Positions 18,581-24,304 of a stretch of 43,345 bases of DNA are shown here, in pieces (position 1 is the stretch's first letter; each line of letters begins with the position of its first letter). The notes under the pieces are model-generated. The model did no database searches and had not been told where the DNA came from. It worked only from the letters and a program-made list of their open reading frames with translations. Location of the stretch: positions 1 through 43,345 of the forward strand of contig NZ_CAJYVU010000045.1 of assembly GCF_913778135.1 (NCBI RefSeq). Reading direction: 5' to 3'. The translations under genes were made by a program, and so were the position numbers. Origin of the DNA: an uncultured Sphingomonas sp. GTDB taxonomy: Bacteria; Pseudomonadota; Alphaproteobacteria; Sphingomonadales; Sphingomonadaceae.

Positions 18581-19245
18581 AGCTCGATCACCCGGTCGGG
18601 TAATTCGTTGGGATTGTCGTCGGTCTTGGGCAGCACCTCGGCCAGCACGACGCCGATCGCGGTGACTGCGCCCGCAAGGCCGTCGGCGGTGCGGCCGGCG
18701 CGGATCGCGGACACGAGCGTCGTCATCGCCTTGCCCCAGCGTTCGGGTGCGACGCGGGCGTGGACGGCGGCGTCGGCGACGATCTCGGCACGGTGTTCTG
18801 CAAGCGAGAGGTAGAGCAGCACGCCCTCGTGCCCTGCGGTGCGGCGCTCGGTGCCGACGCGGAATGCTTCCAGCGCGCGGCGACGAACGCGGCGTGCCTT
18901 GGTCGCTGGAGGAGTGAGCGCGAGCCGCAGCGGGCGATAGGCGAGCAGCAGCCGAACAAGAAGGAATGCGACTGCCTGCGCGATCAGCAGCGTGAACAGC
19001 ATGCCGTGTATGCTCGGCTCATGCTCCCAGCCATTGTCGAACGGGGTGAGCCAGTCGGGCCTGATCGCACCGACTGCGGTCACCGCGAGGACGGCGGCGA
19101 GCGCGTAGTGGAGCGCGACGTCGTGATAGGCGTCGGACTGCTGCGCGACGATCGTCACGATCTCGCCGTCGGTGGTCGCCTCGGCTGCGGTGACCGCGGC
19201 GGCGACCGCGTCGCGCTCGCTGTCGGAAAAGGTCGCCATCACCAT
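18577..19245 (-). CDS. TPM-domain protein with two central membrane helices
   Basis: The 222-residue protein has a split TPM-type domain. The N-terminal part is short and acidic (DSERDAVAAAVTAAEATTDGEIVTIV). Two membrane helices follow at about residues 45-65 and 82-103 (GMLFTLLIAQAVAFLLVRLLL). The second half contains FRVGTERRTAGHEGVLLYLSLAEHRAEIVAD, the family core shared with the YgcG/Psb32 group. Start is ATG 19245 or ATG 19239; both overlap or abut the stop of the preceding TPM gene, so translation is coupled either way. The pairing of a secreted-type TPM protein with this second form behind lemA is a recurring operon in proteobacteria; function is not established. Confidence 0.88.
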   Translation of the reverse strand: MVMATFSDSERDAVAAAVTAAEATTDGEIVTIVAQQSDAYHDVALHYALAAVLAVTAVGAIRPDWLTPFDNGWEHEPSIHGMLFTLLIAQAVAFLLVRLLLAYRPLRLALTPPATKARRVRRRALEAFRVGTERRTAGHEGVLLYLSLAEHRAEIVADAAVHARVAPERWGKAMTTLVSAIRAGRTADGLAGAVTAIGVVLAEVLPKTDDNPNELPDRVIEL

Positions 19246-20099
19246 CCCCCGCTCGCGCCGCCGCCGCCGAACGATCCGCCGCCGCCACCGAAGCCACCAC
19301 CGCCGCCGCCGAAGCCACCGAACCCACCGCCGCTGCCGCCACCGCCCCAGCCGCCGCCCATGCCCGGGCCCCAGATCACGACCGGCGGCACGAAGCCGCC
19401 GCTGCGACGACGCTGGCCACCACCGCCGCCGCCACTGCCATGATCGTCGTCGTCATCGTCGTCGAAGCGCCGGCCGCCCGCGCGGCGGAAGATCAGCGGC
19501 ACGACGAAGAACAGCACCACCATGATCCAGAAGACCGCGATCAGGCCGCCGCGATTGTTGCCGCCGGCCTGCGCGCGCTTGGCGCCCGCCGCCTTGGCGC
19601 GCTGCTCCGCGGCCTCGAGCGGGAGCTTCAGCTGCTCCGCGATCGCGTTCGCGCCCGCGACGATGCCACCCGCCATGTCGCCGTCGCGAAAACGCGGCAG
19701 GATCGTCTGGTTGATGATGACGCTGGACAGCGCGTCGGTGACGATCGGCTCCAGCCCGTAGCCGACCTCGATCCTGACCTTGCGCTCCTTGGGCGCGACC
19801 AGCAGGATCACGCCGTTGTTCGCGTCCTTCTGCCCCAGACCCCAGGCACGACCAAGACGGTAGCCGTAATCCTCGATCGGGTAGCCTTGCAGGTCGGGGA
19901 TCGTCGCCACCACCAGCTGTCGCGTCGAGGCTTGCTCGACGCCCGCGCTCAGCTGCGTCAGTTGCTGCACCTGCTCGGGCGAGAGCAGGTGCGCGTCATC
20001 GACGACGCGGCCAGTCAGCTTGGGGAACGTCTGCGCTGCGGCCGGCAGCGCGAACACGACCAGCAGCAGCGCGAGGATCGAGCGGATCAGCCGCGACAC
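19239..20099 (-). CDS. TPM-domain (YgcG family) exported protein with Gly-rich tail
   Basis: The 286-residue protein has a signal peptide of 23 residues (ending PAAAQ) and a periplasmic TPM domain at about 25-150 (VVDDAHLLSPEQ, YGYRLGRAWGLGQKDANNGV, RIEVGYGLEPIVTDALSS). A helical linker and a membrane helix at about 185-205 (GLIAVFWIMVVLFFVVPLIF) follow, then RRFD with seven consecutive Asp, and a long Gly-rich tail to the end. TPM domains occur in photosystem repair and phosphatase-like proteins, but the bacterial YgcG branch has no agreed function. The gene starts 10 bases after the lemA stop and its stop abuts the next TPM gene. Confidence 0.92.
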   Translation of the reverse strand: MSRLIRSILALLLVVFALPAAAQTFPKLTGRVVDDAHLLSPEQVQQLTQLSAGVEQASTRQLVVATIPDLQGYPIEDYGYRLGRAWGLGQKDANNGVILLVAPKERKVRIEVGYGLEPIVTDALSSVIINQTILPRFRDGDMAGGIVAGANAIAEQLKLPLEAAEQRAKAAGAKRAQAGGNNRGGLIAVFWIMVVLFFVVPLIFRRAGGRRFDDDDDDDHGSGGGGGGQRRRSGGFVPPVVIWGPGMGGGWGGGGSGGGFGGFGGGGGGFGGGGGSFGGGGASGGW

Positions 20100-20109
20100 G
20101 GGTGTTGGC

Positions 20110-20697
20110 TCAGGCGCCGAAGTTCACCGTCGGCGCGGTCTGCGCGTTGGGCGTGGTCGCCTGGAACGGCACCATCGGCTTCGCACCGTAGAAAATCTTC
20201 GCGCCGACCGCGTCGGGGAAGGTGCGGATGCGCGTGTTGTAGTCCTGCACCGCCGAATTGTAGTCGCGCCGCGCGATCGTGATGCGGTTTTCCGTGCCCT
20301 CAAGCTGCGATTGCAGCGCCATGAAGTTGGCGTTGCTTTTCAGGTCGGGGTAGGCCTCCTGCAAAGGGCGCAGCTGCGTCAGTGCGACGCTCAACCCGTT
20401 CTGCGCATTGGCATATTGCTGCACCTTGGCGGGATCCTTCAGGTCGTCGCCCGACAGCTGGATACGGCCGGCATTGGCGCGCGCCTCGGTCACGCGGGTG
20501 AGCACGTCCGACTCCTGCTTGGCATAGCCCTTCACCGTCGAGACGAGATTGGGGATCAGGTCGGCGCGGCGCTGATACTCGTTCTGGACGTCGGCCCAGC
20601 GCGTCTTCGCAGTCTCCTCGGCGGTCGGAACGCTGTTGAGCCCGCACGCGGCGAGCGGAAGCGCCATCAGCGCGGCGGCAACGGCACGGTGGGTCAT
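20110..20697 (-). CDS. lemA: LemA family lipoprotein
   Basis: The 195-residue protein has a lipoprotein signal with lipobox LAAC (Cys18), then the LemA helical bundle: WADVQNEYQRRADLIPNLV, STVKGYAKQESDVLTRVTEAR, a LTQLRPLQEAYPDLKSNANF segment and TENRITIARRDYNSAVQDYN. LemA proteins are envelope-anchored helical bundles without a known enzyme activity, widely found in operons with TPM proteins, as here. First gene of the lemA-TPM-TPM-Nudix operon; the promoter must lie between 20698 and about 20800, where I see only a weak TATA-like CTATAT. The lipobox form differs from LemA versions with an uncleaved N-terminal helix. Confidence 0.95.
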   Translation of the reverse strand: MTHRAVAAALMALPLAACGLNSVPTAEETAKTRWADVQNEYQRRADLIPNLVSTVKGYAKQESDVLTRVTEARANAGRIQLSGDDLKDPAKVQQYANAQNGLSVALTQLRPLQEAYPDLKSNANFMALQSQLEGTENRITIARRDYNSAVQDYNTRIRTFPDAVGAKIFYGAKPMVPFQATTPNAQTAPTVNFGA

Positions 20698-22500: not shown

Positions 22501-22893
22501 CTAGCGTTGGCTGTCGTTCGCTACCAGCATCGGTCCGAGTGCGCGACCGGCGAGGATGTGGACGTGGAGGTGCGGCACCTCGGCGTGCGCGTCGCCGCCG
22601 ATATTGGCGATCAGGCGATAGCCGCCGGCGACCAGCCCGGCGTCGCGCGCGACACGGCCGATTGCGCGGGTTAAGCCGGCGATCTCCGCATCCGATGCGC
22701 GTTCGCTGAAATCGTCCCAGCTGACGTAGGCCCCGCGCGGGATCGCGAGCAAGTGGGTCGGCGCCCAGGGCGCGATGTCGCGGAACACGACCGCGTAATC
22801 GTCCTCGTACACCCGCGTCGAGGGGATCTCGTCACGCAGCAGGCGGGCGAAGATGTTGTTGTCGTCGTAGGGTTGGGTGGCGTCGACGGTCAT
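22501..22893 (-). CDS. HIT-family nucleotide hydrolase
   Basis: The 130-residue protein has the histidine-triad motif VPHLHVHILAG with His108, His110 and His112. The HINT-branch landmarks FARLLRDEIPSTRVYEDDYAVVF and APWAPTHLLAIPR are also present. These enzymes hydrolyse purine nucleoside phosphoramidates or related adenylates. The gene follows hisE by 16 bases and ends the his block. The same hisE-HIT neighbourhood recurs in alphaproteobacteria as far as I recall, perhaps by cotranscription rather than shared chemistry. The upstream open frame before the ATG at 22893 overlaps hisE and is not coding. Confidence 0.93.
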   Translation of the reverse strand: MTVDATQPYDDNNIFARLLRDEIPSTRVYEDDYAVVFRDIAPWAPTHLLAIPRGAYVSWDDFSERASDAEIAGLTRAIGRVARDAGLVAGGYRLIANIGGDAHAEVPHLHVHILAGRALGPMLVANDSQR

Positions 22894-22909: not shown

Positions 22910-23257
22910 TCAGGGGCGAAAGGAGAGGGGGAGTCCGGCCGGGGTGCGCGCGGCCTTTTCGTCGAGACCGCCCAGTCCTTCGCGCTTCGCGAGCTCCATC
23001 CGCACGTCGCCGAGACTGAGCCCGGCGTCGGCGAGCAGGACGAGCAGGTGGTAGATGAGGTCGGCGGCCTCGGGCACGATCGCGTGCGGGTTGTCCCCCA
23101 TCGCGGCGATGATCGTCTCGGTCGCTTCCTCGCCCAGTTTCTGCGCGATCCGCGCGCGGCCCTTGTGGAACAAGGAGGCGGTGTAGGAGGCGCCCGCGTC
23201 GGCACCCTTTCGTTCAGCGATCGTCGCCTGAAGGCGATCGAGGATGTCGTCGGCCAT
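22910..23257 (-). CDS. hisE: Phosphoribosyl-ATP pyrophosphatase
   Basis: HisE removes pyrophosphate from phosphoribosyl-ATP, the second step of histidine synthesis. The 115-residue all-alpha protein shows LQATIAERK, SYTASLFHKGRARIAQKLGEEATETIIAA (cut here to family landmarks KLGEEATE) and the EAADLIYHLLVLLAD helix with the Mg-binding Glu/Asp. It is a stand-alone HisE, not fused to HisI. ATG at 23257 is chosen; a TTG at 23293 would add 12 residues but has its AAGGA too close. The gene lies downstream of hisF and the small peptide gene in the same direction and 16 bases before the HIT gene. Confidence 0.93.
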   Translation of the reverse strand: MADDILDRLQATIAERKGADAGASYTASLFHKGRARIAQKLGEEATETIIAAMGDNPHAIVPEAADLIYHLLVLLADAGLSLGDVRMELAKREGLGGLDEKAARTPAGLPLSFRP

Positions 23258-23315: not shown

Positions 23316-23501
23316 TCAATCCTTGCGGGTTGCGGCGCGGCGTCTCAGCGCACGACGCGTGAGCCACACCGCGATGACCGCGAACACGAACAGCGCCACG
23401 TCCGACAATTCGGGTGCGGTGCGCGGGCGCGGGTGCCCGTCGTGTCCGCTCGCCGCGACGAGCAATGGGGCGAGCAGCAGGGCAAGCAGGCGCGGGTTCA
23501 T
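23316..23501 (-). CDS. Tiny exported membrane peptide with PEP-CTERM-like C-terminus
   Basis: The 61-residue product has a signal peptide (LLALLLAPLLVAASG), a His/Pro/Arg-rich spacer of about 12 residues, then TAPELSD, a hydrophobic helix (VALFVFAVIAVWL) and a basic tail TRRALRRRAATRKD. The Pro-Glu element, a single helix and an Arg-rich end is the order of PEP-CTERM sorting signals, so this looks like a minimal sorted peptide or a bitopic membrane peptide. The PEP motif is imperfect. It starts with ATG 23501, 41 bases after hisF and 58 bases before hisE, all on the same strand, so it is probably cotranscribed with the his genes. No function known to me. Confidence 0.72.
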   Translation of the reverse strand: MNPRLLALLLAPLLVAASGHDGHPRPRTAPELSDVALFVFAVIAVWLTRRALRRRAATRKD

Positions 23502-23542: not shown

Positions 23543-24304
23543 TCAGTGCGTGCGCACCGGAACGCCCGCCGCCAACAGCGCGGCGTGCGCGTCGGCGATC
23601 GTCGCCTCGCCGAAGTGGAAGATCGAGGCGGCGAGCACCGCGGATGCGTGGCCCTGCGTCACGCCGGCGACGAGGTCGCCCAGCGTACCGACGCCGCCCG
23701 AGGCGACGACGGGCACGCTCGTGCGGTCGGCGATCGCGCGGACGAGGTCGAGGTCGTAGCCGCCGCGCGTGCCGTCGCGGTCCATAGAGGTGACGAGCAG
23801 CTCGCCCGCGCCCAGTTCGGCGAGGCGGAGCGCGTGCGCGACCGCGTCGATGCCGGTCGCGCGGCGCCCGCCGTGGGTGAACACCTCCCAGCCGTTCTCG
23901 ACGCGGCGCGCGTCGATGCTGGCAACGCAACATTGCGCGCCGAAGCGCTCGGCGATGTCGGCGACCACCTCGGGCCGCGACACGGCGGCGGAATTGACCG
24001 CGACCTTGTCCGCGCCCGCCAGCAGCAGCGCGCGCGCGTCCTCCGCGGTGCGTACCCCGCCGCCGACGGTCAGCGGCATGAAGCAGACCGCGGCGGTGCG
24101 GCGGACCACGTCGAGGATCGTACCACGTGCCTCGTGGCTGGCGGTGATGTCGAGGAAACAGAGCTCGTCGGCGCCCGCCGCGTCATACGCGCGCGCCTGC
24201 TCGACCGGATCGCCCGCGTCGACCAGGTCGACGAAGTTGACCCCCTTCACGACGCGCCCGTTCGCCACGTCGAGGCATGGGATGACGCGCGCGCGGACGG
24301 TCAT
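23543..24304 (-). CDS. hisF: Imidazole glycerol phosphate synthase, cyclase subunit
   Basis: HisF uses ammonia from HisH to close the imidazole ring, giving imidazole glycerol phosphate and AICAR. The 253-residue TIM barrel has catalytic Asp12 ([14 protein letters not shown]) and Asp131 (ASIDARR). The two phosphate-binding loops are GGGVRT near 81-86 and [11 protein letters not shown] in the second half. The ATG at 24304 overlaps the hisA stop by 4 bases. Complete and of normal length. Confidence 0.97.

Follow-up and report, generated by a model that had tools for sequence, protein, structure and literature searches.

In this study, we propose that ORF61, a gene for a protein of 61 residues that precedes hisE in Sphingomonas, probably encodes a miniature, lineage-derived PEP-CTERM protein and a dedicated target of exosortase A (XrtA). 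A preliminary description of this DNA had likened the peptide to a minimal exosortase-type sorting signal. The comparison is supported by orthologues before hisE, by co-occurrence with XrtA and by a profile relation to PEP-CTERM proteins. The window, that is the whole stretch of 43,345 nucleotides analysed, stems from an uncultured Sphingomonas sp.

To our knowledge, the action of exosortases on their targets and the acceptors of attachment have been little tested, and there is little biochemistry on this enzyme class. The PEP motif has been proposed to lie at the outer face of the inner membrane and to be recognised there by EpsH in a sortase-like processing with a link to exopolysaccharide; PEP-CTERM sets are numerous, with a median of 8 in a genome, and rank with the fastest to evolve (Haft 2006, PMC1569441). 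In a study that used transposon mutants of a freshwater Sphingomonas, 'Amidotransferase, exosortase associated' is listed among the genes affecting colony morphology (PMC11340318). This suggests that exosortase-linked genes are tied to exopolysaccharide in Sphingomonas; the available excerpts of that study are silent on ORF61. The PMC open-access literature yielded no paper on PEP-CTERM, exosortase and Sphingomonas together, none on PEP-CTERM with Novosphingobium and none on Sphingomonas ribosome profiling and small proteins. ORF61 is not named in the PMC open-access titles and abstract beginnings among the matches listed on exosortase/PEP-CTERM, hisE, hisF, sphingomonads and XrtA.

ORF61 and its conservation in the genus

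The minus-strand translation of ORF61 reads MNPRLLALLLAPLLVAASGHDGHPRPRTAPELSDVALFVFAVIAVWLTRRALRRRAATRKD (Table 1). It confirms the peptide with TAPELSD, a hydrophobic helix and an Arg-rich tail that had been read from this position: TAPELSD occupies residues 28 to 34, a hydrophobic N-terminus precedes it, and one hydrophobic stretch and RRALRRR follow. Further copies in the same genome are limited to four weak matches (E 0.1 to 0.4), which we took as chance. Neighbouring genes in the window, at positions 19239 to 20697, look as if they encode a LemA-like lipoprotein and a TPM-domain (YgcG-like) protein whose tail is Gly-rich.

Table 1. Coordinates of ORF61, its parts and the adjoining genes in the window.
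Feature	Position	Strand	Remarks
ORF61, 61 residues	23316..23501	minus	ATG start, TGA stop; no internal stop
Signal-peptide-like N-terminal segment, residues 1-17 (MNPRLLALLLAPLLVAA)	23451..23501	minus	read by eye
Signature PELSD, residues 30-34	23400..23414	minus	SD invariant; PE in 52/75 orthologues (weak cases over-represented); aligns with VPEPSD of other genera
Putative hydrophobic helix, residues 35-47 (VALFVFAVIAVWL)	23361..23399	minus	helix read from sequence
Basic tail RRALRRR, residues 49-55	23337..23357	minus	sequence and orthologue alignment
hisE	22910..23257	minus	start at 23257; constant downstream partner of ORF61; gap 58 nt
hisF	23543..24304	minus	stop codon 23543-23545; upstream neighbour in the window, gap 41 nt; not so in all genomes
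Gene presumed from its sequence to be of the HIT family (histidine triad)	22501..22893	minus	3' of hisE; order usually conserved

A search with the single ORF61 sequence found a match in 118 of 151 same-genus genomes at E<=0.01. A profile of 25 ORF61 sequences recovered the same 118 and one more, G049, at E<=1e-7 (119/151), the next weaker matches (E>=6e-4) being taken as chance. With this conservation ORF61 is not a chance ORF, and orthologues at the same locus in sphingomonads, which the preliminary description had proposed to look for, are abundant before hisE. Ser33, Asp34 and Arg53 are the same in all of 47 diverse orthologues that share 33-74% identity with the window protein; Arg27, Ala36 and Arg55 are nearly invariant. 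The pN/pS ratio of ORF61 (median 0.54 over 1242 pairs, 0-0.13 in six of the closest pairs, a few values above 1) is uninformative for coding and was dropped as coding proof.

Relation to PEP-CTERM proteins

The order of the ORF61 tail, from signature through hydrophobic helix to a basic cluster near the protein end, is that of PEP-CTERM proteins (TIGR02595 / PF07589), which go with EpsH/exosortase, and an exosortase is likewise present in the genome. ORF61 differs from them in that the window protein has PEL instead of the near-invariant Pro-Glu-Pro and is matched by neither TIGR02595 nor PF07589 when scanned at E<=10, and in that it is single-copy and fixed in place. Its matches to PEF-CTERM (14.3 bits, cut-off 23), to midcut-by-XrtH (10.3 bits, cut-off 45) and to the Pfam families DUF5134 and Rubella_E2 are all sub-threshold and were not used. 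Orthologues within the genus vary in this respect. The one in G003 has APEPSD and passes TIGR02595 with 17.5 bits (cut-off 16), its 19.7 bits for PF07589 lying below the cut-off of 20.7; the one in G033 has no TIGR02595 match and reaches 13.8 bits with PF07589.

Of 249 family genomes searched with a profile of 47 Sphingomonas sequences, 38 gave a match at E<=1e-3, and 33 of these belong to other genera. Twenty-five other-genus loci were fetched, and in 21 the match lies between hisF and hisE; these 21 proteins carry a tail as in IPEPSNLALFGLGLAGVIIGRHASRRRRR, with PEP in 20 and AEP in one. The remaining four matches are away from his genes and chance-like. Five of the other-genus hisE-adjacent proteins were scanned, and four pass TIGR02595 and three PF07589. 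In some genera a Ser/Gly-rich body precedes the PEP tail of the hisE-adjacent protein (three fetched: L140, L143, L147), and the slot holds tiny as well as larger surface-type proteins.

In profile-profile comparison the Sphingomonas ORF61 proteins matched the other-genus slot group at 98.4% (E 8.6e-15, over the tail), a match favoured by the retrieval of this group through its similarity to ORF61. The shared slot before hisE is independent evidence of the relation. Exosortase-type tails of the PEPxxWA type occur in the same genus too, and are numerous in two XrtV genomes without ORF61, but their profile, drawn from G009 and G053 (both XrtV), G048 and G148, matched ORF61 at 11.9%; it matched the other-genus hisE-adjacent group at 74.9%. 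Moreover, in G026 and G037, which carry XrtA and lack ORF61, a protein ending PVPAPAALGLFSLGVAGLALARRRRR fills the same slot, and that of G026 passes both TIGR02595 and PF07589. Because of the slot proteins of other genera, the profile match, the model passes in G003 and in other genera and the replacement in G026 and G037, ORF61 is, as judged from sequence and place, a derived PEP-CTERM protein. It shares slot, small size and homologous tail with the hisE-adjacent PEP-CTERM proteins of the family, which we propose as one orthologous group. In two genomes of one genus, good matches to this group lie away from hisE (G154:C11:327618-327782, E 8.6e-11; G247:C1:50138-50290, E 1.9e-13), and the gene may have moved there.

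A comparably small protein is PExPT-CTERM (TIGR04200, 57 positions), the target of exosortase J, which by the length of its model is mostly signal peptide and sorting tail, as ORF61 would be. Two other-genus hisE-adjacent proteins have sub-threshold matches to TIGR04200. The PExPT-CTERM gene is encoded beside xrtJ. PExPT-CTERM differs from ORF61 in exosortase and motif, and ORF61 adjoins hisE on a contig separate from xrtA.

Co-occurrence with exosortase A

The window genome has one exosortase match, a frame of 536 residues that TIGR03109 identifies as XrtA (320.4 bits, cut-off 208) and that includes an EpsI domain (TIGR02914). Its gene is on another contig than ORF61, next to genes that we judged from their sequences to be glycosyltransferase-like and asparagine-synthase-like. 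XrtA, which is the proposed processing enzyme and not a relative of ORF61, is found in 116 of the 119 genus genomes with ORF61.

In the genus sample, 149 of 151 genomes match the exosortase family PF09721, the two without a match being G124 and G148, and XrtA is over cut-off in 122. XrtA and ORF61 occur together in 116 genomes, XrtA alone in 6, ORF61 alone in 3 and neither in 26 (Fisher 2.5e-20, uncorrected for kinship). Six genomes have XrtA without ORF61. G026 and G037 are those with the replacement in the slot; in G043, G072 and G076 only ~12-49 nt separate hisF and hisE; G012 is 85% complete and has no hisF match. The three with ORF61 and without XrtA over cut-off are G017, where XrtA matches come in pieces, G093, which is 87% complete, and G048. 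The single-contig assembly of G048 shows xrtA in several broken frames and ORF61 open (locus L118), which may be real decay or sequencing error. Among the genomes without XrtA, G053 and G009 were typed and carry XrtV, and most others have exosortase frames of similar short length. ORF61 is retained in at least eight genomes where a short second exosortase accompanies XrtA (G004, G021, G029, G047, G062, G075, G099, G145), so the absence of ORF61 goes with the loss of XrtA and not with the presence of the other enzyme.

The family sample comprised 119 genomes of 96 genera, mostly one or two per genus; hisE was not found in three. The family table was built on 87 matches up to E 1e-3; its counts hold among the matches listed, with presence as a lower bound, and by eye none of the other listed family matches lies before hisE. 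A same-strand match upstream of hisE is present in 48 genomes among the matches listed. On this basis XrtA and the hisE-adjacent copy occur together in 44 genomes, XrtA alone in 32, the copy alone in 4 and neither in 39 (Fisher 8e-8, uncorrected for kinship); 32 of 76 family genomes with XrtA have no detected hisE-adjacent copy among the matches listed. Within each of two genera, one genome has both and another has neither (G171/G256 and G185/G267, among the matches listed). The four genomes with the copy and without XrtA are G181 and G263, which belong to one genus and have another exosortase, and the drafts G220 and G266, in which no exosortase was found; the genus of G266 also includes G184, where the copy and XrtA are both present. 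The preliminary description had held that genomes with the peptide and without any exosortase would speak against its reading. No such genome occurs among the 119 of the genus, whereas among the matches listed no exosortase was found in two of the 48 of the family, both drafts, the other 46 having one.

Kinship was addressed with a hisF tree of 95 of the 151 genomes, among them 31 of the 32 that lack ORF61; on this tree ORF61 and XrtA each change 11 times. On the supported branches of a quick tree, the mean numbers of concordant independent pairs were 5.4 and 5.9 (median p 0.06 and 0.03). A careful tree gave means of 3.9 (median p 0.125) and 3.0 (median p 0.25); without the three genomes whose xrtA is broken or incomplete, the means were 4.0 and 3.8 (median p 0.125 each). 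Opposed independent changes had a mean of 0.1 or fewer on both trees, and in about 3 independent pairs one trait changes without the other. This control is weak evidence, consistent in direction and from an underpowered test; we do not claim significance since the median p on the careful tree is 0.125-0.25.

These numbers bear on the view that ORF61 encodes an ordinary microprotein with a single membrane pass, stands before hisE by chance and is linked to XrtA solely through the common descent of Sphingomonas clades. XrtA status is indeed clade-structured, the ORF61 motif drifts and the careful tree holds only 3-4 concordant independent changes. However, there is almost no independent change the other way, the same trend appears at family level, with XrtA in 44 of 48 genomes with the copy among the matches listed, and the profile relation of ORF61 to PEP-CTERM tails would find no place in such an account, which we consider unlikely.

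Drift of the signature

Motif conservation was followed in 75 orthologues, 72 from sample genomes and three from Sphingomonas relatives. Pro-Glu, one residue and SD are found in 52 of the 75, and the 23 without mostly show a GFxxSD pattern, fractions that are not population estimates since weak cases were deliberately over-represented among the fetched loci. All 20 sample genomes whose orthologue lacks Pro-Glu carry XrtA. Since 23 of 75 orthologues are without Pro-Glu and all of these 20 genomes keep XrtA, a strict PEP-recognition model does not fit. The N-terminal hydrophobic core falls under an arbitrary threshold in 20 of the 75 in a hydrophobicity scan; the signal peptide of the window protein is plausible by eye. 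As both Pro-Glu and the N-terminal core drift, SD, helix and basic tail are the retained parts of the ORF61 signal.

Another reading is that ORF61 serves the XrtA system as a small membrane-bound partner or as a regulator, which binds XrtA or the polysaccharide machinery via its helix and is left uncut. The co-occurrence with XrtA holds in the 20 genomes where Pro-Glu is lost and in most genomes with a weak ORF61 signal peptide, and SD, helix and basic residues are just what ORF61 keeps. Against an uncut partner stand the same-slot proteins of other genera, which have ordinary PEP-CTERM tails, several of them reaching curated cut-offs, and three of which, as fetched, have long Ser/Gly-rich bodies. 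We regard such a role as quite unlikely.

Other PEP-CTERM proteins in genomes with XrtA

Fifteen hand-picked genomes and 14 control genomes were scanned with PF07589, matches being recorded at E<=1. None of the eight genomes with XrtA as only exosortase match has a PF07589 match over cut-off. The window genome and G010 have none at E<=1, and G013, G035, G091, G116, G129 and G003 have one or two each, all sub-threshold, one of the two in G003 being its ORF61. Sub-threshold matches appear in 6 of the 14 controls, none over cut-off, so a single weak PF07589 match means little alone. G017 has one sub-threshold match, and G086, which has a second exosortase match, has four, one of them over cut-off. 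Matches number 31 and 21 in the XrtV genomes G053 and G009, and 19 in G048. Of the two genomes without a detected exosortase, G124 has no match and G148 has 7, which argues against the simple rule that such tails need a detected exosortase; G148 may be missing a contig or have an exosortase invisible to the models.

A Ser/Gly-rich protein that ends in PVPAPPM(M/V/L)LLFGAAAAALV.RKR, or nearly so, occurs below the PF07589 cut-off in six of the eight XrtA-only genomes and in G017 and G086, one per genome (loci L159-L165 and L171, around position 1500). It is possibly a second XrtA target, with a candidate non-PEP signature that is without the Glu.

Linkage to hisE

The preliminary description had placed the peptide within a histidine block. 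It does lie between hisF and hisE in the window; its partner, however, is hisE, because ORF61 and hisE stand together with hisF elsewhere in 11 of 72 same-genus loci, three more being on contigs that end too soon. We therefore replaced linkage to the whole his block by linkage to hisE. Between ORF61 and hisE, 58 of 71 loci have a spacing of 25-35 nt, which is the usual spacing also where hisF lies apart. In 8 loci stop and start overlap by 4-5 nt, and in the other 5, among them the window with its 58 nt, the gap is 46-101 nt. The gap between hisF and ORF61 ranges from -41 to 727 nt (57 loci, estimated from aligned ends with the hisF stop codon counted; the -41 reflects start-site uncertainty). 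The position before hisE is best understood as an arrangement for expression that has been conserved, by close spacing or stop/start overlap, and for which a role in histidine synthesis is not needed. That ORF61 is mainly a leader that sets hisE expression by translational coupling, the peptide itself having little role, would suit this tight spacing to hisE as against the gap to hisF that varies from overlap to >700 nt, but is very improbable, as the protein sequence is conserved down to 33% identity, SD without any change and the basic tail with very little, and as the tie to XrtA and the PEP-CTERM relatives would be left unexplained.

Discussion

ORF61 is a single-copy, place-conserved and drifted PEP-CTERM protein that tracks XrtA, and it fits the PEP-CTERM architecture cut down to a minimum. 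As the XrtA target that we propose, the peptide would enter the inner membrane with the N-terminus facing outward and be halted there by its hydrophobic helix and the basic tail RRALRRR. XrtA, whose gene lies elsewhere next to polysaccharide-type genes, would recognise the signature at the membrane surface, cut there and pass the short outer piece to an acceptor in the envelope or to exopolysaccharide. In the window this outer piece, counted from a signal-peptidase site that is plausible by eye up to the signature, would have about 14 residues, SGHDGHPRPRTAPE.

A further idea, which we offer tentatively and consider rather unlikely as a whole, is that XrtA in XrtA-only Sphingomonas is not a general sorter. 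Its main product might instead be a short peptide conjugate, in which the ORF61 outer peptide of ~14-20 residues, with a conserved His-Ser-Gly-like element and a Pro/Arg-rich stretch, would be joined to a lipid or an exopolysaccharide end; Pro-Glu would then be free to be lost as the enzyme serves one or two targets.

ORF61 is a candidate target for those XrtA genomes in which the standard PEP-CTERM model sees hardly any target. If it is a true XrtA target, a single-copy protein of ~60 residues that is found in one place through much of the family and tracks one enzyme would be a simple system for the measurement of cleavage and for the search for the acceptor.
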